The notes beneath the pieces were generated by a model that searched no databases, was not told the origin of the DNA, and saw only the letters and a program-made list of their open reading frames with translations. Both the position numbers and the translations under genes were made by a program. A stretch of 64,000 bases of DNA from positions 17,764,877 through 17,828,876 of the forward strand of contig NC_055992.1 in NCBI RefSeq assembly GCF_018446385.1. Reading direction: 5' to 3'. This DNA is from Zingiber officinale (Eukaryota > Streptophyta > Magnoliopsida > Zingiberales > Zingiberaceae). Positions 1 through 34,830 of the stretch are shown here, in pieces. Each line of letters starts with the position of its first letter. The first letter of the stretch is position 1.

Positions 1-529
1 ACTTGTTAGGATCCTTTGTACGGCTAGAGAGGGGGGGTGTGAATAGCCGCCCCAAATCGCTCGCGTTTCTTCCTACACTTCGTTAGCGCAGCGGAAAAAT
101 AAACTAGAAACGAAAGGAAGAATATCAAACCTTAGACGCAGCGATGTAACGAGGTTCGGAGATGATACTCCTACTCCTCGGCGTGTCCGTAAGGTGGACG
201 AGCCCTATCAATCCGTCGGTGGATGAGTCCCCGGAGAACCGGCTAATGTCAAACTCCTTGTGGGTGGAGAAACCTCGCCACAAACGTTTGCAAAAGCAAA
301 CAAAGAGTACAAGTACAAAGAATAAGCAAGAAATACAGTAAGAATACACAAGCACTCTACCAATCTTGCTTTCTCGTCGACTGGAGTCCGGATGAAGCAG
401 CAGCAGCTGTTCCAGTCGGGGAAGCTCACGCGAAGCTTGCGAGGAAGGAACTCAACAGAGCTCAAGCACCAGAACAGCAGCTCTGTAGCAGAAGAGAAGA
501 GGAAGAAGAGTCTATGCACAGACCTCGAT

Positions 530-540
530 CCTTTTATACC
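530..540 (-). promoter_or_regulatory. TATA box of LTR H
   Basis: The minus strand reads GGTATAAAAGG, a strong TATA box, directly downstream of the palindrome block. Transcription would run leftward through the rest of the LTR. Confidence 0.6.
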
Positions 541-596
541 TGCGAAGACAGAAGCCAGCGGAGAAGAAATCTAGCCGTTGCGTCGCAACGGCTAGT

Positions 597-906
597 GCCC
601 TGATCGGTCTGTGGACCGATCAGGGAACCTACTGATCGGTCCCCAGACCGATCAGCATGATTCACAGAAAGTTGCCCAACTTTCTGTTCGTTTCCTGATC
701 GGTCTGTGGACCGATCAGGCCACAGCTGGATCGGTCCACAGACCGATCCCACCTCTCCCGGCTGCGTCTCTGATCGGTCGTGGAGACCGATCAAGCTTCA
801 TGCTGATCGGTCCCCGCACCGTCGAAGCTTGTTGCCTTCGTTGTTATCGATCGGTCACCGGACCGATCGATACTAACGTATCACCGATCGATCGCAAACC
901 GATCCG
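597..906. repeat. Palindrome block GATCGGTC...GACCGATC
   Basis: About eight inverted repeats with arms GATCGGTC and GACCGATC around a 3-6 base centre, some imperfect. On the minus strand they lie directly upstream of the TATA box at 530-540. Confidence 0.9.
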
Positions 907-1099
907 AGCTTGGTTTTTGCCCAAACCAAACCAAGTCCCAAGTCTCCCAAACCAACATTGTCAACCTCGACTGTTGGTACTTAATTCCTAGCATCGGTCA
1001 CTCCTTGACTGCTAGAATTCCCGCCAAGTGTCCGGTCAATCCCTTTGACCTACTTGGACTTTCCAACACCAAGTCCGATCATCCCCGATCCATCTGGAT

Positions 1100-1620
1100 T
1101 TTCCCTTGCCTGGCTTCACTCACCAGGACTTTCACCTGGCTTCACTCACCAGGATTTCCACATTGCCTAACATCCCAGTTAGGACTTTCCCACTGCCTGG
1201 CTTCACTCACCAGGACTCTCCACACTGCCTGGCTTCACTCACCAGGACTTCCCACACTGCCTAACATCCCAGTTAGGACTTTCTCATTCACCTAGCTTCA
1301 CTCACTAGGATTTTCACCTGGCTTCACTCACCAGGATTTCCCCGAATGCCTGGCTTCACTCACCAGGACTTTCACCTTCACCTAGCTTCACTCACTAGGA
1401 TTTTTCCCCGTGCCAAACTCCCTGTTTGGACTTTCCCCGTGCCAAGTCTCCATACTTGGACTTTTCGCGTGCCAAGCTCCCTGCTTGGACTTTTCCAGTG
1501 CCAAGTCTCCATACTTGGACTTTTCCAGTGCCAAGTCTCCATACTTGGACTTTTCCAGTGCCAAGCTCCCTGCTTGGACTTCTCCGTTGCCAAGTCTCCA
1601 TACTTGGACTTTTTCCCGAA
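1100..1620 (-). repeat. Array of about 17 short hairpin modules
   Basis: About 17 units of 20-30 bases, each a 5-6 bp stem with a short loop followed by GGACTTT or a variant. Stem pairs seen on the plus strand are CCTGG/CCAGG, CCTAG/CTAGG, CCTAAC/GTTAGG, CCAAAC/GTTTGG, CCAAGT/ACTTGG and CCAAGC/GCTTGG. The arms change together between unit types, so pairing is kept. The array lies in U3 of LTR H, upstream of its TATA box. Confidence 0.85.
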
Positions 1621-1865: not shown

Positions 1866-4432
1866 CAAGAGTCAAACTATGTTTTTCAATCTTGTCCTAA
1901 ATACCCAATTGAGTTGTTATATTTTGTAAGTGTCAACTAATTTGATGCCTACACCTAAATCATAGAATTTTTGTTTTGAGTTTAAGTTTTTGGTTTAATT
2001 AATATTAACTTAGATTTAATTTTAATAAAGTGTTTAAGTTTTAATTTAAGTTTCAAATTTTAAATTAATTAAGTTGGTTAAATTGTATTTATTTGAAATA
2101 TTACCTTTAATATTTTACTTTTTATTAATTTATATTTTTTGAATTTCTATGATTTAATCTCAATTGTATCCTAGTGTTTAAATTCAACCTTATATTTATA
2201 TTTTCTTTATCTTTTAATTTTATATTATTAGTTAATTTAGTTAAAGTTATTAGATTAATTTTATCTATAGAATTATCCTTAATATATAAATTATTAATTT
2301 TTAATTTTTAATTTATTAAATTATCTTCATTTAAGATCTTATCTTTATATTTAAATGTTTATTAATTTTTAATTTCAAATATATTAAATTATCTTTGTTT
2401 AACAAATTATCTTTAATATTTAAATTTTTATTATTTTTTAATTTTAATTTTGATAAATTATCTTTATTTGGATAAAAATCTCTAAATTAATATTATCTAG
2501 ATTATCAAATATATTATTAAGAAATTTATTAATTTTATCTATATTGACTTTCATTAATTAATTTATTTAAATTAAATTTTTTGAATTAATTAAATTTAAA
2601 AAATTTGAATTAATTACGTCTGATTTTTTATTAGGTTTGGAATTATCAAAATTATTTAAAATTTTCAACTCTAATTTATCATGCAAAGTATCATCTAATT
2701 TATTACCCAAATTATTCTCTAATGTATCATTAATAGGAGCATTTTCATAATAAAATGTACTAACCGGAATCATAACCCTTAATTTTGTAGGCTTCTCTGT
2801 TAGTTTGGACTCGAGTATGGATTCATTTTTGTCTTGTTCTGCCAGCTTCAATGGCATCTCGTAAAGCTTGGTCAAGTGGGTCCAAAACTATTAGGCATCT
2901 TTGACCTTTCTTATTTTGCATGTAACTTTGTTAGGTAATAAATTTAAAATTAACTATATTGCCTTTTGGTTTACTTTCAAGTTTTGAGAAGATTGTTTCA
3001 GCACTATGCTGCCATCAAAGTCGTTCATCAAGACGAATCTTCTATTTGCATCCTTCATAGATTGAATTCATTCATCTTGTATATCTCATATGGAGGTGGT
3101 TCGTTGACATTTCGCTTGAGCATCTTTTTATGCTCCATTTTTCTTATGTAATACAATTTCAAAGAGAGATTCTAAGATTAGGTCTTGGGATAAGTAGTGT
3201 GGGAGAGAATAATAGTAAAGAGAAAAGTCTCAAGTGGTATTACACCAATTTTGAAGAAAAAAATAATAAAATAAAAAAACTATGACAAATTTGTCAGAAT
3301 AGGTGATTGCACCAATTCAGAGTAATCTGACTCTGATACCACTTATTATGATCAAAAAGATACTAGAGGGAGGGGGTGAATAGCGTTCTTCGCTTTTTCT
3401 AAAATCACGAGAATATGTAGTGAAAAATAAGCGAAGAAAAGAAGAACGCAAAGAGGCAAGCGCTAACACAAGTTCAATTTACTTAGTTTGAAGCTTTTAA
3501 CGACTCCTAATCCAAGGCCTACACTCGTTGAGTGCTTTCGTTGAACAATCATTATAAGCTCAAAAAGATTACAAAAAGTTAAGTACAATGCAAGAATAAT
3601 AAAAGAATATCGACAACAAAAGTAAAGAAACTTGGTTGGTGGTTGTCGGAGTAGTCTTTCGGTGTCGTAGGAGCCTTCTTGGAGCAGCGCATAAGAATGA
3701 AAGTTGGAGCGAATGTTGTGTTGAAGGATATGAGTGATGGCCTTTTATAGGCTATTTTCGGGCACCCGGACCACCCCCGGGTGCTTGGGTTGCTGACGTG
3801 GTGGCTCCTTGGTGAAACTCTATCTATGAAATTTTATCCTTCTCTGAACGTCCAGATTGTGACGTAGGTTGGTCAATCGGTGTGTGCCACCTCATCCAGT
3901 CGCCTGCTACTTCGCCTCCTTGCCCGTGCGCCTGGACCACCTCCAGGCACCTAGACTGTGTCTGGGCACCTAAAGCCCCCTTTTTTAGCCACATGATTTT
4001 CCTACATTTTAATGTTAGCACAATAATCAATGATATGGAAAAAAGAGTAGTAATTAAATATTTAACACTCTCTGGGTTGTTCGGTCCTGATTTTGAGTTT
4101 CGCTAAAATCTAGGTCAGATCAATGCCTATTGTTTCCTCAACTAGGAATGCATCCTCACTGGATCTCTCCTCCAGTTACTTACCTTTACTTACCATATGT
4201 AGTCACTTGGCTCGGCTCTTGACTCACCAAGTCTTTCCGCCAGTTGTCAGATCCGTAGACCCAACTAGACTTTGGCCAGCTGTCAGGTCTCACAGATCCA
4301 ACTTAAGTTCCTGCCAGATATCAGGACACTCCTTAACCTATCTAGATTTCTCCTTAGCTATCAGCTCTAACAAATCTAGCTGGATTTCAACCTAGTGTCA
4401 GATCCTCCAGACCCGTCATGTAAGATATAACA
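1866..4432 (-). mobile_element. 5' part of A/C-like element G
   Basis: A minus-strand fossil. From right to left it has a probable 5' LTR (3344-4432), a primer site (3330-3341, TGGTATCAGAGT on the minus strand), a leader sharing the TTGGTGCAA..CACC wording with elements A and C, and a very AT-rich body (about 1920-2660) that ends at LTR H. No pol is seen. A 102-residue minus-strand frame at 2567-2875 is lysine- and asparagine-rich and I do not recognise it. The element is incomplete and looks older than C. Confidence 0.55.
3344..4432 (-). mobile_element. Probable 5' LTR of element G
   Basis: Bounded on the left by the primer site and on the right by a minus-strand TGTTATATC start. It repeats the LTR plan of H and C: GACTTT-type modules on the right (about 4190-4420), inverted repeats around GGCACCCGG and GCCTGG (about 3760-3970), then a TATA box (CTATAAAAGG on the minus strand, 3741-3750). 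The ends are eroded, so the borders are approximate. Confidence 0.5.
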
Positions 4433-5330: not shown

Positions 5331-6630
5331 TGTTGGTGTAATTTGCATTAACAGTTTAACTCAGATTTTGATTAATGACAAGTGAGTTAAGTTAGGTGTT
5401 ATCATGATCTAATTCATTTACCGAGTGTGCAGGGTTGACTAACCTGATAGGTCAAGAGGACCTGACACCAAGCAGAAAGTCCAGTTAAAATATGCGATTT
5501 CTGATTGGCAAACTCCAGATGTGGGATTCTGACAAGAGGAAGTCCGGATGTGTGATTTTGGCAGGAGATCGGGATGTTTGATTTCTGGTTAGCAAAGTTT
5601 GGATGTGTGATTCTAATAGGAAGCCCTGGTGGGTCAGATTGATGTCAAGGAGGTAACTTGACACATGGTAAGTGAAGGTAAGTCATTGGAGGAGAGTGAC
5701 TCTATAAGGACGTGTCCCGATTGAGGGGGCAGTAGGCATCATTCTAATTTAGGTCCATTTTGAAAACCTAAATTAAGACCCTTACTAGATCCTGGTCAGG
5801 AAGAAAGGGTCTAAGTTATAAATTAATTATATTATTATTATGTTAAACTTTGTTTTTATAGGTTATTATATTTATTTTGGGCTAACATAAACTTGCAGGA
5901 CAAAAAGAGAAAAATTTATCTCAGGTGAACAGTACCCGAAGGTGTCTTCCAGAAGACGAAAGGCATCTTGAGCACTGTTAATAGAAGGTGTCTTTGGTGC
6001 TATGGAAGGCGCATTCCATCGAACAAAATCTAACTTCGTTAGGCAATAAGGAGCAGCGAATTCGGGATAAAGTTTTGTCTATGGAAGGTGCCTTCAAGGC
6101 TATGGAAGTCGCATTCTACACTCTTTAAAAGGGTGTCTCGACCAAGCATTCTTCAACAACTCTCATACAAGCTTCTAAGCGTCCGATTGGCATTTCGATT
6201 GCTTCAGCTTTCTGCTGCTGCCCTACTACATCTCTATTATGCCTGACTGCCACTGAGAAGCCATCCAAACACTAAGCTCGAGTCAACTGTCTACAAAAAG
6301 TGTTTGGTAACAAAGCTTAAGTTCTATAATTAATTTATACAAATGGAAAGTGTAGCTTGTTACACTCTTCTGATTCTTTTTATACTCAATCCCCTCTTCT
6401 AGTAGTTCTGAAAGAGGTTATTAGTGGATTACCCGTCAATAAGTCCATGGGACCTGGGTCTTGGAGTAGGAGTCGTCGAAAACTCTGAACCAAGTAAAAC
6501 CGATTGTGTACTTGTATTCTACTTGCTTTGATGTTTCTTTCTTTTTTGCTACGCATACTTTATTTTTAAAAGTAAAAAAATTTTAAAACCATGTGATTCA
6601 CGCCCCTCTCACGTGTATCTCAATCCAACA
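5331..6630 (+). mobile_element. 5' LTR of element A
   Basis: It begins TGTTGGTGTAATTTG and ends CAATCCAACA, directly before the primer site, and is 1,300 bp long. It holds GGAAGTCC-type modules (5470-5640), palindromes around GAAGGTGCCTTC and variants (about 5930-6118) and a TATA-like TTTAAAAGG (6124-6132). Confidence 0.85.
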
Positions 6631-10800: not shown

Positions 10801-13800
10801 ATGATGCTCAATCTCAAGGAACTCTTCGGACACCAGAATCGGGCTGCCAGGCAGGAGAACAATAAAGGTGTATCTTATTCATTAGTTGTTGAAACATGTT
10901 TAGCGGTGTTATCTACCGGTACCTGGTGTGTAGATACGAGAGCCACTGATCATGTTTGCAATTCATTGCAGGGGTTCCAGGAAACCCAACGACTACATGA
11001 AGGGGAAATCACCATCTACATGGGCAATGCTACGAGAGTGGCGGCTGTTGCTGTGGGAGATATTTATTTATCTTTTGATAGGAATAAAACATTGATTTTG
11101 AGAAATTATCTTTACATACCATGTTTTAGAAAGAACTTGGTTTCAGTTTCTAAATTATTTATGGATGGACATTCTGTTTCTTTTGATGACAAAGTAGTTG
11201 CTAAGAAAAATAGGGTGGTTATCTGTTCTGGTGCGTTGGTTGGCAATTTGTATACTCTTAATCCAATAACTCCCACGATGCAACAAATAGAAATTAATAA
11301 CACATCTTCTAATTCTAATAAGAGAAAGCAACATTCGGAAATAAACCAAACATATCTTTGGCATCTAAGGTTTGGTCACATTAACTTGAGTAGGATTTAA
11401 AGGTTAATAACCGATGGACCTTTGGGTTCATTGGTAGTGGAAAACTTTCTGATCTGCGAGTCTTGCTTGGAAGGAAAATGACCAAGAGGTCTTTTAAGGC
11501 AAAGGAGTATAGAGCCAAAGAAGTGTCGGAATTGGTTCATTCTGATTTGTGTGAGCCTATAACTATCCAGGCAAGAGGTGATTTCGAATATTTTATCTCT
11601 TTTATAGACGACTATTCGAGATATGGGTACATTTACTTGATACACCGCAAGTCTGAGTGCTTTGATAAGTTCAAAGAGTACAAGGCTGATGTAGAGAAAC
11701 GTCATGGTAAAAGCATCAAGACACTACGGTCTGATCGTGGTGGAGAGTACCTCTTAGGAGAGTTTAGGAGTTTTTTATCAGAGATTAGGATTCAATCCCA
11801 ATTATCTACACCTGGTGCACCCCAACAGAATGGTGTGGCGGAACGAAGGAATAGGACTCTTATGGAAATGGTTAAATCAATGATGAGTTATTCAGAATTA
11901 CCAAATTCATTTTGGGGATATGCTTTGGAAACAGTGGCGTACATTCTGAACTTGGTATCTTCTAAGTCAGTATCCTCTACTCCCTCGGAATTGTGGAACG
12001 GGCGTAATCATAGTTTGAAACATATTCGAATTTGGGGTAGTCCTGCACATGTGCTGAAGGAGATGCTGATAAGTTGGAATCACGTATATAAGTTCGCTTG
12101 TTCATGGGATATCCTAGAGTATTGAAAGTTGGTTTGTTTTATAGTCCTAAAGATCAGAAGGTTATTGTTAGCACCAATGCTCGATTTTTAGAAGAGAACT
12201 ATGTGATGAACCACAAGTCCATGAGTAAAATTGTTCTTGAGGATATAAGAGAAGACACATCTATTTTAGTACCAACTGTGCAAGATGAGATACCACAAGT
12301 AACTACAACATTTGCCACAAATGATGCATAATTACAGGTAGTGCCTCGTCGTAGTGGGAGGGTTGTTAGGCAACTTGATAGATTCATGTTTTTGGGAGAG
12401 TCTTCGGATTTGATCCCTGGTGAACATGAAGTTGATCCATGGACATATGATGAAGCACTCAAAGATAAAGATGCAACATCTTAACAAAGTGCAATGAACT
12501 CTGAAATAGAATCTATGCATTCTAATCAGGTCTGGGAGCTTGTAGAACCACCAAATGGTGTAAAAGTCATTGGATGTAAATGGGTCTACAAAAGGAAAAG
12601 AGGAACAAATGGGAAGGTGGAAACCTTTAAAGTGAGGCTTGTTGTGAAGAGGTATACTCAGAAAGAGGGAATCGATTATGAGGAAACTTTTTCACCGGTA
12701 GCTATGCTTAAGTCTATCCAGATTATTTTATCTATTGATGCTCATATGGATTATGAGGTTTGACAAATTGATGTCAAGACAACTTTCCTTAACGGAAGTC
12801 TTGAAAAATATATCTATATGAAGCAACCAGAGGGATTCATTGCGAAGGGCAAAGAGCATCTTGTATGTAAGCTCAATCAGTCCATTTATGGACTGAAGCA
12901 AGCTTCGAGATCTTGGAACATCCGGTTTAATGAAGTGATCCAGTCTTATGGATTCATTCAGTGTCCGGATGAGTCTTGTGTATACAAAAAAAGTGACGGG
13001 AACATGGTGGTATTTCTTGTACTATACATAGATGACATTTTGCTCATTGGGAACAATGTCAAAGTGTTGTCAGGCATAAGGGTATGGTTGTCCAAGCAGT
13101 TTGATATGAAGGACTTGGGAGAATGTGGACATATTCTTGGGATCAAAGTAATAAGGGATTGCAAGAAAAGGATGTTGTGCTTATCCCAAGCTTCATACAT
13201 CGATACTATCTTATCTCATTTTAGCATGCAAAACTCCAAAAAAGGTTTTCTACCTTTTAGGCATGGAGTACTTTTATCTAAAGAGTTGTGTCCTAAGATA
13301 CCAAAGGAGATAGAGGAAATGAAAGTAGTTCCTTATGCTTCGGCTGTAGGAAGCCTAATGTATGCAATGCTATATACGAGATCGGATATCTGTTTTGCCG
13401 TGGGCATGGTTAACATATATCAAAGTAATCAAGGACCAGGACATTAGACTGCGATAAAGCATATATTAAAGTACCTGAAAATGACTAGAGATTATATGCT
13501 GCTTTACCAGGCAGATGATTTACTTCCTGTGGGTTACATGAATGTGGATTTCCAATCAGATAGGGACAGTAGTAAATCAACCTCGGCGTATGTGTTTACT
13601 TTGGGAGGTGGAGCCATAGTATGGAGGAGTGTTAAGCAGAAATGTGTTTCAGACTCTACCATGGAAGCAGAGTATGTGGCAGCCTCTGAGGCTGCTAAAG
13701 AAGCTGTATGGCTCAGAAACTTCTTGATGGACTTAGATGTGATTCCTGGTTTGCCCAAAATTAGCACAATTTATTGTGACAACAGTGGTGCAGTAGCAAA

Positions 13801-14970: not shown

Positions 14971-16235
14971 TGTTGGATCAAAAGCGCTAGGGGGGGGTGA
15001 ATAGCACTCATGACTTTCACTCTTTTCGAATTCATAAATCATACGTGTTTAAGCAGCGGAATAAAGAAAAGGGAACAAAAACAATACACAAGGACACGAG
15101 GAGTTACTTGGTTCTGAGCCTGTGAAGACTCCTACTCCAAGGCCCGCGATCATTGATCGCTTCCAGTGGGCAAAAACTATAAGATCAAAAAATATTACAA
15201 CTGAAGTGCAATAAGGATTATGACAAAAATAAACTGAAATATAATACCGACAACAACAGATTGAAGAATCGCAGCTTCGGGTCGTCGATAGCTTGTCGTA
15301 GCACTTCTGGGTCGTCTTGTTAGCAGCACACAGGAGAAAGGTCGCTTGAGAATTGTTGTCCTAAGTCGTTGCTCGAACCCTCCTTATAAACAGTGTTGGA
15401 GGAGCATCCAAGCCTGTCCGAGGCGCCTCCAGGCTGCCAAGTAGCACGCGTGGATCAGCTCTGATCTGGTCGCACCTTATCCCACTGAAGGCGCCTCCAA
15501 GCTACTCCAAGGCGCCTCCAACGCCTGGTCCAAGGCGCCTCTAGTGACCTCCGAGGTGCCTCCAGCGTCTCTGGATAGATGGCTTCGGCTAGCACCCGAG
15601 GCGCCTCCAAGCCCCATGGAGGCGCCTCGAACACTGTTCATCCGAGGTCTAAGTTGTTTCTTTGTTCCTGAAAAATGTGTTAGTCTCAAACACAAACCCT
15701 GCAAAACAAAGTTAGCACAGAAACAATATGATAGATATAATTGACAGTCGTCGGACTGTCCGGGTTTGACTTCGGATTTCCAACCGGAAACCCTAGGTCG
15801 ACCCGACGCCTACTATTCCCTCTACGGGGAACGCGTCTTCACCTACTCCACTCAGGAGATTTACCTGTTGCCAGTGCGATCCTCCAGATCGACTGGACTT
15901 TTGCTCAGTGTTCGAAGCTTTCGGACTTTCTGTTGGACTCCCGCTTCCCGGCTCGTCTAGTCTTTCACCTGGTTCGCGACACCAGGACTTTCCACCTAGG
16001 GTTACCCCCTAGGACTTTTGCCTGATGCTCTCGACCCACCAAGACTTTCCGCATAGGGTTACCACCCCCTATGACCTAGGGTTATCACCCCCTAGGGTTT
16101 TCTGCCTGCCTAACCGCGGCTAGGACTTTCTTGAAACATTCAATTAAGTACCTTAGATCACAAAACAGCTTAACTTTGAATTCCTTTGCTATTATCAAAA
16201 CAACGGTCGATCGTCGGATGCTTCCCGCACCAACA
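14971..16235 (-). mobile_element. 3' LTR of element C
   Basis: 1,265 bp, TG...CA on the minus strand. It contains hairpin modules (about 15,955-16,115) with stems such as CCTGGT/ACCAGG and CATAGGG/CCCTATG. GAGGCGCCTC-type palindromes follow (about 15,405-15,630), and then a TATA-like TTTATAAGGA (minus strand, 15381-15390). Confidence 0.92.
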
Positions 16236-18152
16236 ATCTCCCCCTTTTTGATTATGACAACTGAAATTCAAGGCTAAGTAAAATAGATGCATAAAGTTTA
16301 AGTAAGTACGCTTAATAAATTTTGAATGCACGCATGGTCAAGCTAAAACTTTAAACTTTGTCAGGCTCCCCCTTAATAAAGACATTCTTTATAAATTTTT
16401 GCTTTTGAATTTTGAATTTCTCTACTCTCCCCCTTTGCCATTTATCAAAAAGAATGAACATGTTTGAAAAAATCTTAACTTTTCACAAAGATTTTAGGAC
16501 GAAGGAAAAAGACTAAGTAAGGAATCTTTAAGACACTTTGTAAAACAAATCACTAAGTAAAATAGTTTGAGCTCGAAGTTAGTTTTCTAAAAGTTTATCA
16601 AATAATTTTGCTAGAGAAAGATTTTTCTTTTGTAGCATAGCAAAAGCAACTTTAGTTTTAAACAACTTAGCAAAAGCAAATTTTGAAACCTTAGGCTTTT
16701 AAAGAGAAAAAATTATTTTGGTAACACTTAGCTTTTTATAATGAATATTCTTAGCTAAGTGAAATATAGCTAATAAAAAGAGCAATAATAACCTTAGGTC
16801 TAAAGAGCAATTTTTCTTTCAACTGAGTTTAAAAGGCTAATAAAAAGTTGACTTTGAAATATAGCTTTAGCCAATTCTGAAACCTAGTTAAATTCTTTGA
16901 AAAACATGTTTTTAGCTAAATTTTGTGAATCTGTTAGAAAATATTTAGCTAAATTTTCAAAATACTTAGTTAAGGGAAAGTGTGTTTTGAAGAGATTTTA
17001 AAGACTTAGATAAAATTGAAAAGCTTTGTTAATAAAAAAGACTTTTAAGAATGGCTAAGGCTAAAAAAGAACAAAATAATTTTTGAAAAGATTTTGCAGT
17101 TCCTTTTTTTTTCACTTGGCCAGAATTTTGAAAGCTTAGTACAAAAATGACTTTTGAAAGTTAGAGTTTTGAAAACTTAGCTAAATTTGAAAGGATTTTT
17201 CTTTTAGACGAATAATCAAGTTAAAACTTTTAAGGGCAAGGGAGGAGCTTAAATCCTTAATGTCCAAGCATGAGTTGAGTTAGATTGATTGTAAATTAGC
17301 TAATTTCTCTTTAAGTAAGGTATCAGAGCCCTAATGTTCATGCCTGAGTGAACTCAAAAATTTAAAAGTCAATCACTTAGGTTTTTGGCCACATGTCTAA
17401 CCATCTAGCTACTAGCTGATTACCTAGAGAGCAACAACTTTCACTTGGTTAGTCAAGTTAAGTCAATAGATCCAGTTAGATTTGACTATGGCTGGATGAC
17501 TTGACTTGATTACTGTTAATTAGGTGTTTAACGTCCAGACTCATATTGATGCACAGATATAAGCATTCTTGAGTCCAGGCTGTACCCTATGCATCTCACG
17601 CCATTCTATGTTCTTCAAACACAAGCGAGGTAAGCCTAGGTGTTTGTGAGATGCTCTGACTGAATTCTAGGGGAACATGATTTTTAAGGTAGAGTCTAGG
17701 CTAAGTCCAAATTTGAAAATCTAACAAAGTTGGGATTTTGAAAACAACAATTTTTCCTACAATTTTAAAAGATGATTTTGAAAACAAGTAAAAAGGTAGG
17801 AAACTAATATGAAAATCAGGACCTATTCTACCCAACATGTTACCATTTGTGCAGATTGTAAACAACTAAAACTAGTAGACATAAATAAGTAGAGGTCAAC
17901 CAAATACTTATACAATCAAAGAAGACAAATAGATGCCTGTCCAAGATACATCAAGTGATAGTGTCAAAAGGCAGGATCATCGAAAGCAGGATCATCAGCT
18001 GGAGGGTCGTCAGCTGGAGGTGGTGCAAGAGGCTGCTCGGGTGCAGGCTGAGGTTGTCCCTGGCGCCGTATCTCGCCTTGGAGAGATGTGAACCCTGCAG
18101 CTATCTCGGATCAGAGAGATCGGAGGAAGCGATGGCTATCTAGCACAGCCCA
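16236..18152 (-). mobile_element. Non-coding tail of element C
   Basis: About 1.9 kb between ORF2 and the 3' LTR. It is rich in short degenerate wording such as TTAGCTAAA and CTTTTGAAA, and ends in the polypurine tract CAAAAAGGGGGAGATT (minus strand, 16234-16249). No coding region or structured RNA was recognised. Confidence 0.7.
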
Positions 18153-19246
18153 TCACGTCTGAATGGACTGGATCTCGAGCCAAGCGAGTTTGTCCTCGAC
18201 GGAAGGAGGTGCCAAAGTCGAAGGCCCGGCTGATGTGGAGGGCCCGGCAGAGGTGGAAGGATCTGTGAAAAACTCCTCGGCTAAGAAGTCTGGCCACTTC
18301 TCACCCTCGCCTGGTACGTCCTCAGCCTCTGGAGCACTAGGAGCAGCGATTGGCGGTGGCCGGCCCTTCCAGGCCAGAATCCCCTCGGCAGTGACCTCTA
18401 CACCCACTAATCTAAGACTACGCTGACCTAACTCATCATATATGGTAAGTGGGATGAGTGTCCCTCTGGTAGTGTCTGTCCTAGAGGTGGAGAAATCTGG
18501 GTCAGGATATGGCAGTAGGGCATATGGATCACTCCAGACGTGACTGTACTAGATGCCTGAATGATGTTATGAAACATATGCAGTGCAATGTCTATATCTA
18601 GGCGCTAGCTAAGAGTGTACAAAAAGAATAAGTGGGATGGTCATATCTTCGAGACGTCTCGAGATGTGATGAGCAGAATGCAAGCTGTCAGGACTGTGTA
18701 CATAACATAGTCCTGAACTCTAAGAAGGGTCAACCTGAACTCAGTCAGTCCAAGAGGTCTCTCCTCCCCAAAAAAGTGCATATAGATGTCATCTAAGGTA
18801 ATATGGGAATAGGGATCACCGAATGGTAGATCCCTACTCGAGTAACATAAGAATGTACACGGAGACTCCCTAAGCTCTAAGCTAGTGCGAAGTAGGGAGG
18901 GAGTAAACTGAATATCAGTTCCACCAACTCTGGTGGAATAGGTGCTATCATCAACCTTTTCAAGGTTGTGATAGAACTGGGCACACAAGTCTTGATTTAC
19001 TGTGGTGTTGCAGTCAACCAGTTTTTTTAGGTGATAGTAATCTATCATCTGGACTGCGGGGAGACAAAATTGGGCAAAAAATGCCCTACATATATACCTA
19101 GGTTTAATGGACTCAAAGGTAAACCTAGCAAAATCTATCCTATGCTGTTCCGAGGGGAATCTAGGGTCCGTAGAAGGGGCCCTAGCCGGTGTAGGATCAA
19201 CAATGCGACGTTTCCTATTTTTGACAATATACAAGCAAAATAGCAA
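18153..19246 (-). pseudogene. ORF2 region of element C, PF20167-like (fossil)
   Basis: The first part (to about 18,641) reads like the plant Transposase_32/putative plant transposon protein domain: RFPSEQHRIDFARFTFESI, then DYYHLKKLV, DLCAQFYHNLEKV, STRVGGTDIQFTPSLL and FGEERPLGLTEFRL. The second part (18407-18153) is proline- and serine-rich with a repeated PSTSAG and ends in a short charged segment, KLAWLEIQS. Element A has the same two parts in the same order. A short upstream exon is possible, so the start is uncertain. The function of this domain is not known to me. The copy is broken in a few places. Confidence 0.65.
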
Positions 19247-19429
19247 AACTAGTACGAAATTTATGTAATAGATGATTAATGGAGGTTTAGAGTATACCTA
19301 GGAGACATTGCTAGGAGTAGAGGAGGAAGAGGTGGGTTGAAGGCGCCTTGGTTGGGGAGAAATCGCACGAGAATCTCGTGCTCGGCTTCGGTAGAAAACG
19401 AATAGAAAGCCTTCTGTTCGTGGCGATAT

Positions 19430-19570
19430 TCAGGGTTGAAGGCGCCTTAAAGGCTTCTTAAGGCGCCTTTGGAGGCGCCTCGGAGATGATCCGAGGCGCC
19501 TTAGGTAAGTCAGCGGGAGTTTCCCACCGCTGTTGAGGGCGCCTCCCTTGTGTGGGAGGCGCCTCTGACC
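19430..19570. repeat. GGCGCC palindrome block before ORF2 of C
   Basis: Several short palindromes built on AAGGCGCCTT and GGAGGCGCCTC, the same type as in the LTRs of C. They lie just upstream of ORF2 in the element's own direction. Confidence 0.8.
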
Positions 19571-19699
19571 GGCACCACGTGTCCCTTTCCTTTTTTTTTT
19601 AATTGATTAAGAAAAATTATTAATTGGTTATGCTTTTTAACTTTGAAGAGGTTTATAAAAATTTGAAGAAGATTAAAAAAGTTATTAAGTTCTTAAGGA

Positions 19700-20122
19700 A
19701 TATCAACTTAATTGAATTAATTTAATTAATTTTGAAAGAATATTTAAGTTTATTAATTTTGAAAAAATATTTTAAGTTAATTTAATTTTGAAAAATATTT
19801 TAAGTTAAATTAATTTTGAAAAATATTTTAGTTAATTTAATTTTGAAAAATATTTTAAGTAATTTAATTTTGAAAAATATTTTAAGTTAATTTAATTTTG
19901 AAAAATATTTTAAGTTAATTTAATTTTGAAAAATATTTTAGTTAATTTAATTTTAAAAAATATTTTAAGTTAATTTAATTTTGAAAAATATTTTAAGTTA
20001 ATTTAATTTTGAAAAATATTTTAAGTTAATTTAATTTTTAAAAATACTTTAAGTTAATTTAATTTTAAAAAATATTTTAAGTTAATTTAATTTTGAAAAA
20101 TATTTTAAGTTAATTTAATTTT
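19700..20122. repeat. AT-rich tandem repeats, unit about 27-28 bp
   Basis: About 15 near-identical copies of a unit like TTAATTTTGAAAAATATTTT plus AAGTTAATT, between gag and ORF2 of element C. Element A has a looser AT-rich stretch at the same place (30,416-30,600). Confidence 0.92.
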
Positions 20123-20769
20123 CTGTTCCTTAGTCATCTCACCCGATCTAAATTTTTAATCAGAGAATCCTATAATTTTTGTGAGATGAATTAGGTTCAA
20201 TTTTAGGGTTTGGTTTAACTTTGGTTAGATTCAGGTTTAGCTTTGGATTCAACAAGTAGACATTGTTTGGATAAACTTCTAGGCTATGATGAGTCACAAG
20301 GACATCATTAAAGTAACCATGCCTTCGAGGTTTTCCAAATAGTCCTACCAATTGAACTTAGTACAAAACCTTGGTCTAACTGGATAGGATCCATAAATGG
20401 TAGATTCGGTCAGTTTCACTAAGCCAAATGCACCAGGTCGAAGCCATATCTTTCTAGACATGCGATGACTAAGCTTCCCCAACGTACTATCATCCAATAT
20501 TTCACCAGTACCATGATTCAAGTTAACCCTAACCCATTTTTTATTCTAACCTTAATCACCCTGCCGGGTATTCTACTCTTGGTTATCCTTGTCGGGTGAA
20601 TTAAGTTTGGAGGTGTTAGCTATTCTGGAGCCTTCCCTTGGTTTTTTAAGATTTTGTTTGAATTTAATTTCTGAATTTAATTTTAATTTTATTTAATTTG
20701 AGTCTTAATTTAATTTAATTTGAATTTGAATTTAATTTAATTTGAATTTTAATTTAATTTTATTTAAAT

Positions 20770-22331
20770 TTAATTTAAGTTTATTTTTATTGTTTTTCTT
20801 CTAGCTCCTCCTGGATCATAGCCTCGATATGGTCTATCGAGGTAATGTACTTGATCCTTAGGGACCCAATATTGACCATGTCCAACTTGATTAACCAGGT
20901 TGGACTTGGGTACCCATGCTTGGACTGATTTATTATTTTGTCTATTTACTAAGGATAGGTAAGATCTATATTTTCTTTTAGTTTTATAACCTAGCCCAGT
21001 TTTGTTGTAAACGGCTCTTTGTGTCCCAAGAATTAGGTCAAGCTTCTTGGAGCCCAAAGAGAACCGTTCTAATGTGTTTTTCAAATCCTCGACCTGAGTT
21101 TTCAGACTAGAATTTTCTTTCTCAAGTTTTTGAACTCGAGTTGAACTTCCAGTCTGAACTGGGTCAGGTAAGGTCTTGGGGTTAGTCACTTCTTTAAGGA
21201 CTGCTACTTCCTTTAGAATGACTTGACCTTTAGGTTTGACTTAGCTAATTTGCGTAGTAAGTAATTAACTAAATTATTAAGTCGAGGAACACTTACATCG
21301 GGGTCAGGCCCTTCAAAAATAGATACGGATCCGTGGCTTTGCTCGGACTCGGCTTCTGACTCTCTCTCGCTCTCGGACAGTTCAATTTGGTCCCGAGCCA
21401 TCAGCGCAAGTAGACTCGTCTGATTGAGTTCATCGTCGGTGTCTTCTTCTGAGGATTCTTCCCAAGTCGCTTTCAGCACCTTCCTTTTCCTCTGCTTCTT
21501 TGCATCCTTCTGATTTGGGCAGTTGGCCTTGATGTGCCCTTTCTGGTTGCATCCGTAGCAGATCACCTCGAATTTGACTCTTGAGCTGGGTTGACCCTCC
21601 TTGGATTGTACTGCTTTCCTTAGGTCTCTCTTGTTGAAGCTCTTCTTCTTCTTGTAGAGTTTCTTTACAAGATTTACTAGTTCGGTTGTCAATTCATTGT
21701 CTTCATCGTCTGAGTTAGGTTTGACTTCCGATTCCGGTTCAGTTCTTCGCCGTGATTTTGGTTCTCGTGTTCGACTGGTACCTGCAACCAAAGCAACCCC
21801 CTTCTCGATTGGCTGTGTATTAGTCTGTTCATGTAATTCAAACTCACAAAATAACTCATCTAATTTTATAGAAGATAGATCCTTGGAGACTTTGTAGGCA
21901 TCTACCATTGATGCCCACAATGTACTCCTTGGAAACGAGTTTAGTGCGTACCTTATGATGTCTCGATTCTCGACTTTCTGCCCGATTGCATGGAGGGCGT
22001 TGAGAACGTCTTGTATACACGCGTGGAGTTGACTTGTCGCCTCTCCTTCCTATATTTTTAGATTATATAGTTTATTGAATAGAAGATCTCTTTTACTAAC
22101 CTTGGTGTTGGAGGTGCCCTCGTGGAGTTCGATCAGCTTCTCCCAAAGCTCTTTTGCGCTGGAGAACGGTCCAACTCCATTGAGCTCCTCCTTGGTCAGT
22201 CTGCACTGGAGGGTGCAGGTCGCTCTGGCATCAGCTTCCACCTTCTTGATTAGGGTCGGTTCCCATTTTACGCAGGGTGTCGGCTTGTCGTCTTCGTCGG
22301 TTGGCAGTTGTATTCCAGTTTTGATAATCAT
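20770..22331 (-). pseudogene. gag region of element C (fossil)
   Basis: A Copia-type gag. On the minus strand the N-terminal part has LQCRLTKEELNGVGPF and KELWEKLIELHEGTSNTKV. Next comes a basic and acidic middle part with the CCHC zinc knuckle CYGCNQKGHIKANCP, and then a coiled stretch ending in LDLILGTQRAVYNKTGLGY. It would package element RNA. It matches the gag of A in order and motifs. It is broken in about two places. Confidence 0.8.
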
Positions 22332-22699
22332 CCAGGTATCAAACTAGATCTTCAGGTAAGTTTCCATTCGTCTCTTCCAGTACCCGAAGTCTTCTCCAGA
22401 GAAGAGCGGGGGACGAACGGTGCTGAAACCCTCTTGTTGGGCCATTTGTTAAATATGCAAAACAAAAATAGCAGAAATATCCCAAGACTATGTCTTGTAT
22501 TAGCAGTGCGGGAAATAAGGTTAAGAATTAACGAACTCGAGTGGTGTTGCACCAGCCTCGAGCAAACAACGATTCAAAAAAATAATTAGAATATAGCTAT
22601 TAAGCTAAATCTAATTGACTCCGTAAAATTGAAAATACCATGAAAAGTTGCGTGATTGGTGGTTGCACCAGATCAACGCGACCCCGCTCTGATACCAAT

Positions 22700-23965
22700 T
22701 GTTGGATCGAAAGCGCTAGAGGGGGGGTGAATAGCGCTCGTGGCTTTCACTCTTTTCGAATTTGTAAATCATACGAGTTTAAGCAGCGGAATAAAGAAAA
22801 GGGAACAAAAACAATACACAAGGACACGAGGAGTTACTTGGTTCGGAGCCTGTGGTGACTCTTACTCCAAGGCCCGCAATCGTTGATCGCTTCCGGTGGG
22901 CAACAACTATAAGCTCGAAAAATATTACAACTGAAGTACAATAAGGATTATGATAAAAATAAACTGAAATATAATACCGACAACAACAGATTGAAGAATC
23001 GCAGCTCCGGGTCGTCGGTAACTTGTCGTAGCACTTCTGGGTCGTCTTGTTAGCAGCACACAGGAGAAAGGTCGCTTGAGAATTGTTGTCCTAAGTTGCT
23101 GCTTGAACCCTCCTTATAAACAGTGCTGGAGGTGCCTCCAAGCTTGTCCGAGGCGCCTCCAGGCCGACGAGTCGCACGCGTGGATCAGCTCTGATCTGGT
23201 CGCACCTTATCCCACTGAAGGCGCCTCCAAGCTGCTCCAAGGCGCCTCCAACGCCTGGTCCAAGGCTCCTCTAGTGACCTCCGAGGTGCCTCCAGCATCT
23301 CTGGATAGCTGGCTTCGGCTAGCACCAGAGGCGCCTCCAAGCCCCATGGAGGCGCCTCGAACACTGTTCATCCGAGGTCTAAGTTGTTTCTTTGTTCCTG
23401 CAAAATGTGTTAGTCTCAAACACAAACTCTGCAAAACAAAGTTATCACAGAAACAATATGATAGATATAATTGACAGTCGTCGGACTGTCCGGGTTTAAC
23501 TTCGAATTTCCAATTGAAAACCCTAGGTCGACCTGACGCCTACTATTCCCTCTACGGGGAACGCGTCTTCACCTACTCCACTCAGGAGATTTACCTGTTG
23601 CCAGTGCAATCCTCCAGATCGACTGGACTTTTGCTCAGTGTTCGAAGCTTTCGGACTTTCTGTTGGACTCCCGCTTCCCAGCTCGTCTAGTCTTTCACCT
23701 GGTTCGTGACACCAGGACTTTCCACCTAGGGTTACCCCCTAGGACTTTTGCCTGAAGCTCTCGACCCACCAAGACTTTCCGCATAGGATTACCACCCCCT
23801 ATGACCTAGGGTTATCACCCCCTAGGGTTTTCTACCTGCCTAACCGCAGCTAGGACTTTCCTGAAACACTCAATTAAGTACCTTAGATCACAAAACAACT
23901 TAACTTTGAATTCCTTTGCCATTATCAGAACAACAGTCGATCGTAAGATGCTTCCCGCACCAACA
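22700..23965 (-). mobile_element. 5' LTR of element C
   Basis: 1,266 bp and the partner of 14971-16235, with the same hairpin modules, GGCGCC palindromes and TATA-like box. It is followed, on the minus strand, by the primer site TGGTATCAGAGC at 22686-22697. Confidence 0.92.
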
Positions 23966-27693: not shown

Positions 27694-29983
27694 GTAACGC
27701 CCCGCCTTCTACTGGCTAAGCTGTAAGGCCGGGGGTTACATTCTGCTGTTGCTAAACTATTCTTAATGTACGGAAAACTGTACAAATTTAAGAATTTGTT
27801 AACTAATACAATTTCTTGGTTCTACCTGTGCTAAGGGGTGCATTCTAAGGTATACATGGCGTATCCTACATCCCCTAAGGTCAAGGAGCTGAGTTACCAG
27901 GTTTCCTGGACGAACCCCAGCTTCCCAATCGATTCAGATTGAACTCAATCGATTGACAGCTACTGGATCGATCCGTTGATCGACTCCATTTGCTACTGTA
28001 TACAGAAACTTCGTTTGGATCGATCGGATGATCGATCCAGACTGGTTGATCGATCCATTGATCGATTCAGCGTGCTACTGTGCACGTAAGAATTTATGGA
28101 TCGATCGGCTGATCGATTCAACTTAGTCAATCGATCCAGTGATCGATCCCAGAGCTCTCTGTTCTCTACAGAACGCTACCGGATCGATCGGCTGATCGAT
28201 CCAGGAGTTTACTGTTTGCGGAACTAGTTGCCCAATCGATCCGCTGATCGATTGAGGAGCCTCCAATCGATCGGCTGATCGATCGGGGTTTCTGATTTCG
28301 TATCAGGAGTATGATTTCAGCACTGTTTCGTGCTCAAATTACATACATCAGTTCTAAATGGCTGGGAAAACATCCTAATATCAAATAACTAGTATTCCAA
28401 GCATGGCATCGTACATAATTCACTAGTTCATGGCATTTAACATACTAAGGTGCGGAATAATAAAATGCTAAAGAGTTCTAATGCTCAAAACAAAACTTGC
28501 TGGATCCCTAAGATCTTTATTCCAAGTTCCTGCCCACACATATCTTTGTAGCATTGTCCTCCAGCCTCCGCTAATCCATCCTTCCTTTACCTTTTATCTG
28601 CAGTATAAGGAAAAGAAGTATCTGTAAGCTCGAGAACTTAGTAAGAAACCATCTACCTCACAAAACATGCATACGATGCAAGTTATGCTTTTAAAACATG
28701 TTATTTGAAATATGTGTTGAACATGCTAAAACATGGCATTCTGGCATACAAACATAGGAAACAAAAGTTGATCATAGCAATATCTTCTAGTATCAACAAG
28801 ATAGAACTAAACTGATACAATAGCTAACTAACCCAATGCTAAGCTGATATAAATCTTGAACTGTAATCACATACTAAATTGTGAAGCTTTGAAAAAAACT
28901 ATTTATCATAAATAGATGAAAATACTAATCATGTTGCTGATGGGCCCGGCAACTGCACTTGCTATGCGCGCATCCCTAATAGACCCGGGGTTGCAAGTCC
29001 CTAATCTAGTAGGGTTTACTAGGTTATCTAAACCTAGGGACGACTATGGGAGCCCAGCCCAAGGACAACTGAAGTCCAGTACAGTGCCACTGAAAAATAA
29101 AATACTGATTTGTAGCTAATATACCTTACCTTGCTCTTACTAGGTTATCTGAACCTAGAACTAGGTTATCTAAACCTAGAGGCGACTGTGGGAGCCCACC
29201 CATTGGACCGTAGTCCCATAAAAGCTGTAGCAAGGCTAACTGTGCTATAAAATGCTTCTACTGCATTTATCTAAACTATTGGAATGCCTATAGTGGCATT
29301 TTACTGAGCGAAGCATTAAAGCAAACACTTGGTGTGCGCAGATTCACACCCCATATACTGAAAATTCTGCATATGACTAAACTAATGCATAAAACGTACG
29401 AAAAACTACTTATACTGCAGGTGAGGGGTTTCTTACATCCTGCGCTAATTTTCCTTACGATCTGATCGCTAGGTTTTCTGGAAAAATGATCTTCTCGACG
29501 ATCCTCTTGCTTCTACGCGTTCTTCTCGTGGAGAGGAGCGTCCTCGTGCCGGAGTTGTCGCTGGAAGGTGTTCTTGGAGACTTTGGGATGAAACCCTAGC
29601 CCTTGGGGCTTGGTGCGCCGAGAGGAGAAGAGGAGGGAGAGGGGGCTGCGTGTAAGGGTTTGCGGAGAGAATTGTCGTTAAAACAATTCTCCACTTAATA
29701 ATTTTCCTATTTATATTAAGGAAATTAATTCGCCCCACTCAACATAAATATAATTGATTCCTTTTCCTTTTAGCACGGCCCTGCTGGGTTCACTTGGTTA
29801 CTAGAGTTATTTATAAGACTTAGAGTCCTATAGGTCTCGGGTTCAATCCCCGCTTAGGCTATTTTACGTTTCTATTTATTTTTGCTACTTCCACTACTCT
29901 AAAAATTCCATAAAAATATCCTAAAATCCTAGAAAATAATAGAATATTTCTAAAATAAATTTTGAGAATTTTCGGGCGTTACA
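27694..29983 (-). mobile_element. Solo LTR-like unit E1
   Basis: 2,290 bp, TGTAACGCCC to GGGCGTTACA, with perfect 5-bp flanks TAAAT (27689-27693 and 29984-29988). The inverted TGTAAC.CCC ends are like those of many plant Gypsy LTRs. On the minus strand it has a TATA box (TATAAATAGG, 29706-29715) and a CT-rich leader. Splice-like signals follow (donor near 29,436, acceptor near 28,598), then AATAAAG (near 28,517) and GATCGATC palindromes (27,930-28,290). No internal coding region is present. A small complete non-coding element is the alternative to a solo LTR. Confidence 0.82.
27930..28290. repeat. GATCGATC palindrome block in E1
   Basis: About eight to ten inverted repeats with GATCGAT(C) arms around short centres such as GGCT. 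They lie beyond the poly(A)-like signal in the minus-strand direction of E1. Confidence 0.88.
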
Positions 29984-32449: not shown

Positions 32450-34830
32450 TGTAACGACCCGCCTTCTACTGACTAGGCTGTAAGGCCGATCGTTACGTAA
32501 TGCTGTGCTAAATTACTATTACGGAAATATGGATTGATTAAAATTTTACTAAACTGATCTCTGTAAAATCTGAACTTAATATTCTAGGTGTACCTAGGGG
32601 TTGTACACATGCTAGGGAGGATAATCTATGCTTCTCGGATGTCCTGCTAGCTGTAATCAGGCATTTCAATCGATCCATGGATCGATTGGGCTGTCGGATC
32701 GATCCAGTGATCGATCCAGCTTGATACTGGCACGGAGAAGGAATCTGGATCGGTCGACTGACCGATCCATTGGCCGTATTGCTTCTGTATGCGGCTGGAT
32801 CGGTCTACCGACCGATCCAGGAGCACACTGATCGGTCGGTAGACCGATCCAGTGGCTCACTGATCGGTCGGCTGACCGATCAGTGAGCGTCTGTGCTCTC
32901 TGTTCGCACATGGATCGGTCGGCTGACCGATCCATAAACTCTCTGTTTGCGCATGGATCGGTCAGCTGACCGATCCAATGGCACAACTCGACTCTGATCG
33001 GTCTGATCTCACCCTGAAACTCTGATTTCAGCACTCCAGCGTGCCAAAACCTCACACAACAATTCTAAAATCAATTGGAATATATTCTAGCAACTATTAA
33101 CCAGCATTCTAACATAATTACTAACAAACTAAATAAATCTCCCATGGTTTAAACATTCTAAGGTCTAAAAATGCATGAAAGAAGAAATACTAAGAATTCA
33201 ACTATTTAAGCTTGCTAAAACCCCTGAGGATCTTTTATTCCAGTTCCTGCCACACACACCATCTTTGCATTGAACTCCAACTTCCTCTGCTAGTCCATTT
33301 TCCCTTTACCTTTATCTACAGTATAAGGAAAGTAGAATCTGTAAGCTTAAAGCTTAGTAAGAAACCAACTACCTCACTAAAACATGCAACGATGCAAACA
33401 TGCTTTTAAAGAATGTTGTTTGAAATCATGTACTGGCATGGCATACTCTGGTTGCAAGCATAAACTGAAATAACTGAACATGTAAGCTGAGGCATGGCAT
33501 AACAGGCTAATCACATAGAACAATAATAGAGAACTAAGCTAACTGAAGCTAACCTGAAGCTGAAATCAAACTCAACTAACATAACTGATTTTATGAGTTT
33601 TGAAAACTAATAGCATAGTAGATCAAAATAATAATCATGTGCTGTTGGGCCCGGCAACTGTACTTACTGTGCGCGCATCCCTAACTAAACCCGGGTTTGC
33701 AAGTCCCGAATTTGGTAGGGTTTACTAGGTTATCTGAACCTAGGGACGACTGTGGGAGTCCAACCCCATGGATATCTAATCTGGTACAGTGCCAACTGAA
33801 AGGTAAAATACTGAATATAGCTAAACTGTTCTAAATTGCTGTTTCTAGGTTATCTGGACCTAGAGCTAGGTTGTCTGAACCCAGAGGCGACTATGGGAGC
33901 CCACCCATTGGACCGTAGTCCCATATAAGCTAGAATAAACTGATTTACTGATTTAGATGCTTCTAATGCATTCAACTGAGCTGTTAAAATACCTAGTTTG
34001 CATTTTTACTTAACTAGCTATTTTATCGAACACTTGGTGTGCCCCAACTCTCCTCTCTATTAGGGAGACCACTTCTAGGCACCCGACAATGTCTAGAAAC
34101 CCCCACTGAAGAGGGATTACGTGTCCGGCCCATCTAGAAGTGCTCACTAAATCCCTAAACCTGAGAGGAGGGTCAATTTCACGCTATGCGTCGATAAAAA
34201 TCTGCATATAGCTAAACTAATGCGTAGAAAACTCAAACGGAGCTACTTATACTGCAGGTGAGGGGTTTCTTACCTCGTACGCTAATTTCCTTATAATTCT
34301 ATTCGCTAGAATTCCGGTGGAGATGACTTCTCGACGATCTTCTCGCGTCTAAGCGTTCCCCTCGCGAAGGAGAGTGTCCTCGTGCCGGAGTTATCGCCGG
34401 AAGATGTCCTTGGGGCCCTAGGGAGAGAACCCTAGGTCTTCCTTGTGGTTGGCGCCGAGAGAAGGAGAGAAGAAGGGTGTTCGGTGTGAGGGTTTGGAGG
34501 GGAGGAGTTTGCCGAACCAAATTCTAAAATAAACAAAACCCAACCTAACTCTTCTATTTATATTAAGTGGATAATTGAACCCAACTCTAATATAAATATA
34601 ATTGATTCTTCTTTCTTTCAGCACGGCCCTGCTGGGTTCACCGGTTACTAAGGCTAACTAAAAGTTATCGGATTCGAGGGGTTCCGGGTTCGATTCCCGC
34701 CTAAGCTATTTTGCGGTTCTAATTATTTTTGCTGCTTCCGCTACTCGGAAAATTCCGGAAAAATATCTAAAAATCCCAGAAAAATCATATAATATTTCTA
34801 AAATAGTTTTGAGAATTTTCGGGCGTTACA
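32450..34830 (-). mobile_element. Solo LTR-like unit E2
   Basis: 2,381 bp, TGTAACGACCC to GGGCGTTACA, with perfect 5-bp flanks AAGTA (32445-32449 and 34831-34835). Same family and direction as E1: TATA (34,554-34,562), splice-like donor (34,269-34,273) and acceptor (33,316-33,321), and AATAAA (near 33,236). Its palindromes are of the GATCGGTC/GACCGATC type (32,690-33,010). Long frames in the palindrome part are by-products of the repeats. Confidence 0.82.
32690..33010. repeat. GATCGGTC...GACCGATC palindrome block in E2
   Basis: About eight inverted repeats, many written GATCGGTCGGCTGACCGATC. The arms equal those of the block in LTR H, although E2 is a different kind of LTR. Confidence 0.9.

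Follow-up and report, generated by a model that had tools for sequence, protein, structure and literature searches.

Landmarks of the LTR that carries the array

The window, i.e. the whole 64,000-nucleotide stretch of Zingiber officinale contig NC_055992.1 that we analyzed, begins with a Sirevirus-type LTR (hereafter LTR1; ~4-1865), which lies on the minus strand, opening with TGTTGGTGCAACC at 1865 and closing with CA at 4-5. Its class is assigned from LTR landmarks only, the gag-pol region of the element lying outside the window. LTR1 is probably the 5' LTR of its element, because the first three positions give AGT in the LTR sense, which fits an AGTGG junction, and no exact PPT adjoins 1865; the window starts inside this junction, of which it shows CA/AGT. 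A start of LTR1 near 1664 instead of 1865 is possible, given three mutually similar stretches that resemble an LTR start or PPT junction (1640-1675, 1742-1785 and 1838-1866; GGTCAACCTTGACCTA..GGTTGCA..CAA). These stretches look as if the LTR had been lengthened through plus-strand priming at upstream PPTs.

The excerpts of Bousios et al. (2010; PMC2829016) that we consulted describe a Sirevirus layout in which repeated-motif (RM) palindromes with a CGG-CCG core, in at least eight copies where present, lie upstream of a TATA box at about mid-LTR, with a poly-C signal ~21 bp from the LTR end and a CA/ATTGG or AGTGG junction. In LTR1, the TATA box (TATAAAAGG in sense; 530-538, minus strand), itself a Sirevirus landmark, comes shortly after the RM cluster, separated by 32 bp from a palindrome (571) and by 59 bp from an RM unit (598), and the poly-C integrase signal (25-45, minus strand) is 21 bp from the LTR end at 4. 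The TATA box stands ~71% along LTR1 (if LTR1 runs from 1865 to 4), compared to about the middle in these excerpts. The array that adjoins the promoter (571-904, minus strand) appears to be of the Sirevirus RM type: it comprises GATCGGTC-loop-GACCGATC units, six perfect and one imperfect, along with two unrelated palindromes (571-595 and 664-687). The units (602-904) agree with the published RM in their CGG-CCG core and their position and resemble the Osr10, Osr8 and Vitis motifs given there, albeit in seven copies against the published minimum of eight.

Composition of the hairpin array

Farther upstream in U3, ~570-1070 bp from the TATA box, lies a second array, made of hairpins. As judged from the LTR landmarks, its interpretation as part of a palindrome-rich cis-region of Sirevirus type (Ty1/copia) in U3 is well supported, and the first-pass annotation was right to place it in an LTR promoter region. 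The array lies upstream of the TATA box, and the LTR reads on the minus strand. We found 17 perfect hairpins between 1109 and 1607, with stems of 5-6 bp, loops of 5-9 nt and starts spaced by 26-32 bp, which agrees with the roughly 17 modules with matching arms that had been noticed initially. On the plus strand each hairpin is followed by A[CT]T (in the LTR sense, A[AG]T precedes the hairpin), so that the array of modules, on the minus strand, spans 1109-1612.

The 17 modules contain six distinct hairpin sequences, and copies within each type are identical: CCTGG-CTTCACTCA-CCAGG (six copies), CCAAGT-CTCCAT-ACTTGG (four), CCTAG-CTTCACTCA-CTAGG, CCTAAC-ATCCCA-GTTAGG and CCAAGC-TCCCT-GCTTGG (two each) and CCAAAC-TCCCT-GTTTGG (one). 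The modules are therefore not 17 independent observations, and the distinct hairpin (n = 6) is the appropriate unit for covariation. After the GG, the trailer is ACTTT in 10 modules, ATTT in four, ACTTC in two and ACTCT in one; the GGACTTT that the first-pass annotation saw after every hairpin is thus exact in 10/17, the other seven sharing GGA[CT]T, which all 17 have.

All 17 modules have Watson-Crick pairing at the five outer positions, without wobble, mismatch or single-arm change. The sixth pair is C-G in five modules, T-A in four and an unmatched C-A in the eight modules of the CCTGG and CCTAG types, where it corresponds to a U-G wobble in the sense strand of the element. Pair 3 is either T-A or A-T across the array, i.e. 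a transversion on both sides. Two couples of types differ by one paired change in the presence of an identical loop: CCTGG..CCAGG and CCTAG..CTAGG share a 9-nt loop, CCAAGC..GCTTGG and CCAAAC..GTTTGG a 5-nt loop, and both changes are G-C/A-T transitions. Inverted loops or trailers were not found inside the 1109-1607 array.

Three larger hairpins lie next to the array (952-1064, minus strand), at 952-977 (CCAACA/TGTTGG), 988-1015 (CTAGCA/TGCTAG) and 1024-1057 (CCAAGT/ACTTGG, which encloses GGTCAA/TTGACC); ACTTTCC directly follows one of them. They seem to continue the 17-module array, which would bring it to ~20 units in one LTR. The ratio of observed to expected CpG is 0.24 in the module part of LTR1, compared to 1.17 in the RM part.

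Covariation and folding of the hairpins

A mechanical finder counted 16 non-overlapping hairpins in 1100-1620, against 4.3 +- 1.5 in dinucleotide-shuffled sequences, none of 200 of which reached 16. The R-U5 part of LTR1 (4-520) is near the shuffle level (7 hairpins against 5.1; 39/200 shuffles reach this number), and the excess of hairpins is therefore local to the array.

To compare the arms, we used the six types, which were chosen as tandem units and not for pairing. At the five outer positions 30/30 pairs match, a score equalled by 291 of 100,000 arm shuffles; with four positions, 24/24 pairs match (1684/100,000). The arms thus covary, in keeping with the compensating stem changes initially proposed. 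We selected the larger hairpins of LTR1 and the modules of the second element described below visually, on the basis of pairing or trailer, and shuffles that include them therefore overstate the result: this applies to the nine types of LTR1 (45/45 pairs; 2/100,000 shuffles), to the seven modules of the second element, one of them imperfect (31/35; 248/100,000), and to the sixteen types of both elements, partly picked by eye (76/80; 0/100,000). The three larger hairpins alone give 15/15 pairs, which is not significant (16,572/100,000).

Pairs 3, 4 and 5 vary among the modules yet stay paired in 17/17; pair 6 does not. We simulated independent evolution of the two arms on neighbor-joining trees of the 17 modules. 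A varying pair stayed paired in all 17 modules in 127 of 34,386 cases (0.37%) when the tree was based on the stems and in 103 of 36,257 (0.28%) when the stems were left out of the tree. A MAFFT alignment of the modules shifted the stems of three of them, and the pair counts do not rely on this alignment.

The 1100-1620 segment folds better than 100/100 shuffles on either strand, the z-score being -3.8 for the sense and -7.1 for the antisense strand. When all 521 nt are folded together, the module stems reach a mean pair probability of 0.36 in sense and 0.64 in antisense. When modules were folded singly, the sense hairpin was the more stable strand in 14/17, including eight with the U-G wobble at pair 6 in sense. 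A role of the array hairpins in sense RNA is possible on the basis of these predicted folds.

A second element with similar modules

Similar modules recur in a second, Sirevirus-type element (14971-23965, minus strand), which is flanked by the target duplication TTATA and whose LTRs (14971-16235 and 22700-23965) are identical at 1201 of 1265 aligned bases, the alignment having 3 gap columns. This element displays the CA/ATTGG TATCAGAGC junction (CAACAATTGGTATCAGAGC; PBS 22686-22694) and a PPT AGGGGGAG-AT/TG attachment site (16234-16245), with further PPTs at 16366 and 16427. Its gag region matches the copia-type Retrotran_gag_2 (PF14223; 28.1 bits, cut-off 27), while the zinc knuckle scores 19.8 bits, below the cut-off of 20.8. 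Five of the seven minus-strand open stretches of at least 70 aa were scanned in pieces and yielded no polymerase domain. An open frame at 18641-19246 has a weak, below-cut-off match to Transposase_32 (putative plant transposon protein) and sits between gag and the 3' LTR, which is the expected place of an env-like gene. The element also contains an AT-rich 28-bp tandem repeat of 14.6 copies (19717-20122).

In the 3' LTR (modules at 15884-16129, minus strand), the stems are CCAG/CTGG, CCTGGT/ACCAGG, CCTAGGG/CCCTAGG (twice), CATAGGG/CCCTATG, CCTA/TAGG and an imperfect CCTG/CAAG, and five of the seven are then followed by exactly ACTTT; a further GGACTTT (15923), accompanied only by a CGAA/TTCG hairpin, was not counted. 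The mechanical finder counted 5 hairpins at 15880-16130 compared to 2.3 in shuffled sequences (5/200 shuffles reach this number), and 64 stem bases compared to 24.6 (0/200). The homologous modules of the 5' LTR (23614-23859, minus strand) show four differences from those of the 3' LTR, three in loops or unpaired positions and one in a stem, unmatched. Although the sample is tiny, these differences are consistent with matched arms arising while the lineage is active and decaying once a copy is dead.

Two further LTRs of the window were considered as carriers of such modules and rejected. In the segment of LTR-C that we examined (4180-4420), CTTTCC or AGACTTT follows two hairpins, but the hairpin count is not above that of shuffles (27/200 reach it); the same is true of the count for LTR-D (5430-5700; 110/200).

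Symmetry and inverted loops in palindrome arrays

The first-pass annotation had singled out the hairpin array as the most unusual pattern of the window, but it does not stand alone there. Besides both LTRs of the second element, palindrome arrays are found at 602-904, described above, and at 28018-28284 (mostly GATCGATC cores) and 32668-32975 (mostly GATCGGTC cores), the last two outside delimited LTRs. A perfect GATCGGTC/GATCGATC core is present in 15 modules of the window. In 14 of these the pair that directly flanks the core is matched (G-C, T-A or C-G), a number reached by 2 of 20,000 shuffles. The second, third and fourth pairs outward from the core are matched in 10, 7 and 7 of the 15, which is not significant (1065, 4503 and 1337 of 20,000, respectively).

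Loops that are reverse complements of each other occur in 3/64 module pairs of the three palindrome arrays (TGTG/CACA twice and TACC/GGTA), compared to 0.24 expected (33/20,000 shuffles), self-reverse-complementary loops having been excluded as pairs. Two of these three pairs share the module at 729, which leaves about two independent cases. Identical loops occur in 5/64 module pairs.

Relation to known LTR palindromes

Like the Sirevirus RM in the excerpts of PMC2829016, the hairpin array is built from multiple palindromes that precede the TATA box and occupy the upper half of the LTR. Unlike it, the 17-module array is devoid of a CGG-CCG core, is CpG-poor and has a nearly constant trailer; moreover, its stems differ between units, whereas table 3 of that paper lists one consensus per element. 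These excerpts contain no description that we found of a second array type beside the RM.

The LTR region described by Bousios et al. (2016, Genome Research, as cited in PMC10760457 and PMC5311732) is likewise palindrome-rich and hairpin-forming. In maize it is reportedly a small-RNA hotspot with high sequence variability, and the maize motif, CACCGGACNNNGTCCGGTG, differs from the modules of the array. Stem covariation between units is not mentioned in the passages of PMC10760457 and PMC5311732 that cite the maize work. In the literature searched, which covered Bousios et al. 2016 through citing passages, we found no description of a module whose stems are free while its trailer is nearly constant, nor any occurrence of five module strings and one RM-array string. 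Exact module patterns gave 0 matches in viral_contigs (two patterns) and in genome_contigs (one pattern), as expected for a plant element. Our claim is accordingly a limited one: the palindrome-rich cis-region of Sireviruses is known, and a second module type, with kept symmetry and free stem letters, is apparently undescribed.

Origin of the matched arms

We lean towards template switching between arms as the main cause of their matching, on top of weaker selection, in the cis-region of a Sirevirus-type U3, and we hold this reading tentatively, at just short of an even chance. The cis-region would comprise two arrays, CGG-CCG palindromes beside the TATA box and the hairpin array farther upstream, the units of which would multiply through tandem duplication. 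What is preserved would mostly be symmetry and not the stem letters: during reverse transcription or replication of the element, template switching at the hairpin would occasionally let one arm serve as template for the other, and a weaker selection for a symmetric control region would act in addition.

We lean this way because of the inverted loops in the neighboring palindrome arrays. Indeed, matched arm changes along with inverted loops are footprints of template switching at inverted repeats in the parts of PMC8794818 and PMC8604942 consulted. The former (Monttinen and Loytynoja 2022) reports the same footprints, although from RNA genes and by ancestral reconstruction, not from LTR arrays, and itself terms the evidence for the maintenance of short stems circumstantial. 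The landmarks of LTR1, the covariation of the six types, the tree simulations, the relatives that differ by one paired change and the symmetry of the neighboring arrays also support this reading. Against it, the 17-module array itself lacks an inverted loop, its sixth pair is half-matched in eight modules, which is what RNA selection or incomplete change would leave, and the sense hairpin, when folded singly, is usually the stabler one. The constant outer CC/GG, the hairpin length of 17-19 and the trailer also speak against it, since they suggest a sequence constraint. The independent events behind the arm matching are few. For the 17-module array, we infer both template switching as a cause and a regulatory role.

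Selection alone for dyad symmetry or hairpins is nearly as likely, given the sense-strand wobble and the fold. The U3 array would then be a cis-regulatory DNA or RNA structure in which compensatory mutations were fixed successively; the RNA of the element contains U3 in its 3' end. The covariation of the stems, in the six types and in the tree simulations, the folding that beats all shuffles on both strands, and the wobble at pair 6 and greater stability of singly folded sense modules are all accounted for in this way, and 13 of 21 Sireviruses were reported to carry palindromic repeats before the TATA box (PMC2829016, excerpts). However, compensatory evolution sits less well with five outer pairs that show neither wobble nor single-arm change in 17 modules, and the stems are less paired in sense than in antisense when the whole array is folded. 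A sequence-specific dimer site would forbid the free change of stem letters, and the inverted loops of the neighboring arrays are left unexplained. The first-pass annotation had named selection and a copying process that rewrites arms as the two options; both are still live.

A bolder version of arm rewriting, which we consider doubtful, is that LTR palindrome arrays are self-maintaining, their arms being re-templated from each other at each reverse transcription. If true, stems would drift yet match, and palindromes would persist without a function for each unit. Excerpts of PMC10760457 raise the persistence of Sirevirus LTR palindromes as an open question, a regulatory role and a role as silencing target being suspected. 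Self-maintenance, if true, would account for the retention of hairpins in Sirevirus LTRs despite the exposure to small-RNA silencing that they bring. An array of ~20 units in one LTR, with symmetry kept and letters free, is a natural experiment on selection versus arm-to-arm copying.

An account in which a few ancestral hairpins were simply duplicated in tandem, with the covariation merely inherited from six modules in the absence of rewriting and selection, appears very improbable. It fits the reduction of 17 modules to six sequences that are identical within types, and the first-pass annotation had itself named unchanged copying of one module per stem type as a case against its reading; this holds within the six types and not between them. 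Same-loop types differ by exactly one paired change, and similar modules in the second element bear different stems; new matched stems exist, so some process had to make them.

Parallel deamination seems equally hard to credit. The paired positions of a palindrome share their context on opposite strands, and the CTG/CAG of CCTGG/CCAGG would be a CHG methylation site, so that G-C could become A-T on both arms without selection, consistent with the two same-loop transitions and the half-changed pair 6; yet many half-changed pairs are predicted and none is seen at the five outer positions in any of the 17 modules, pair 3 requires a transversion on both sides, and the single stem difference between the LTRs of the second element is unmatched.

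Other features of the window

The sequence GGACTTTCC resembles an NF-kB site; this likeness was dropped because plants are not known to have Rel proteins. Another element lies on the plus strand (11463-13447), with an integrase core at 11463-12125 and a copia-type RVT_2 reverse transcriptase at 12818-13447. Further tandem arrays are present at 36054-36472, with periods of 24 and 49 bp, and at 36699-37024, with a period of 83 bp.
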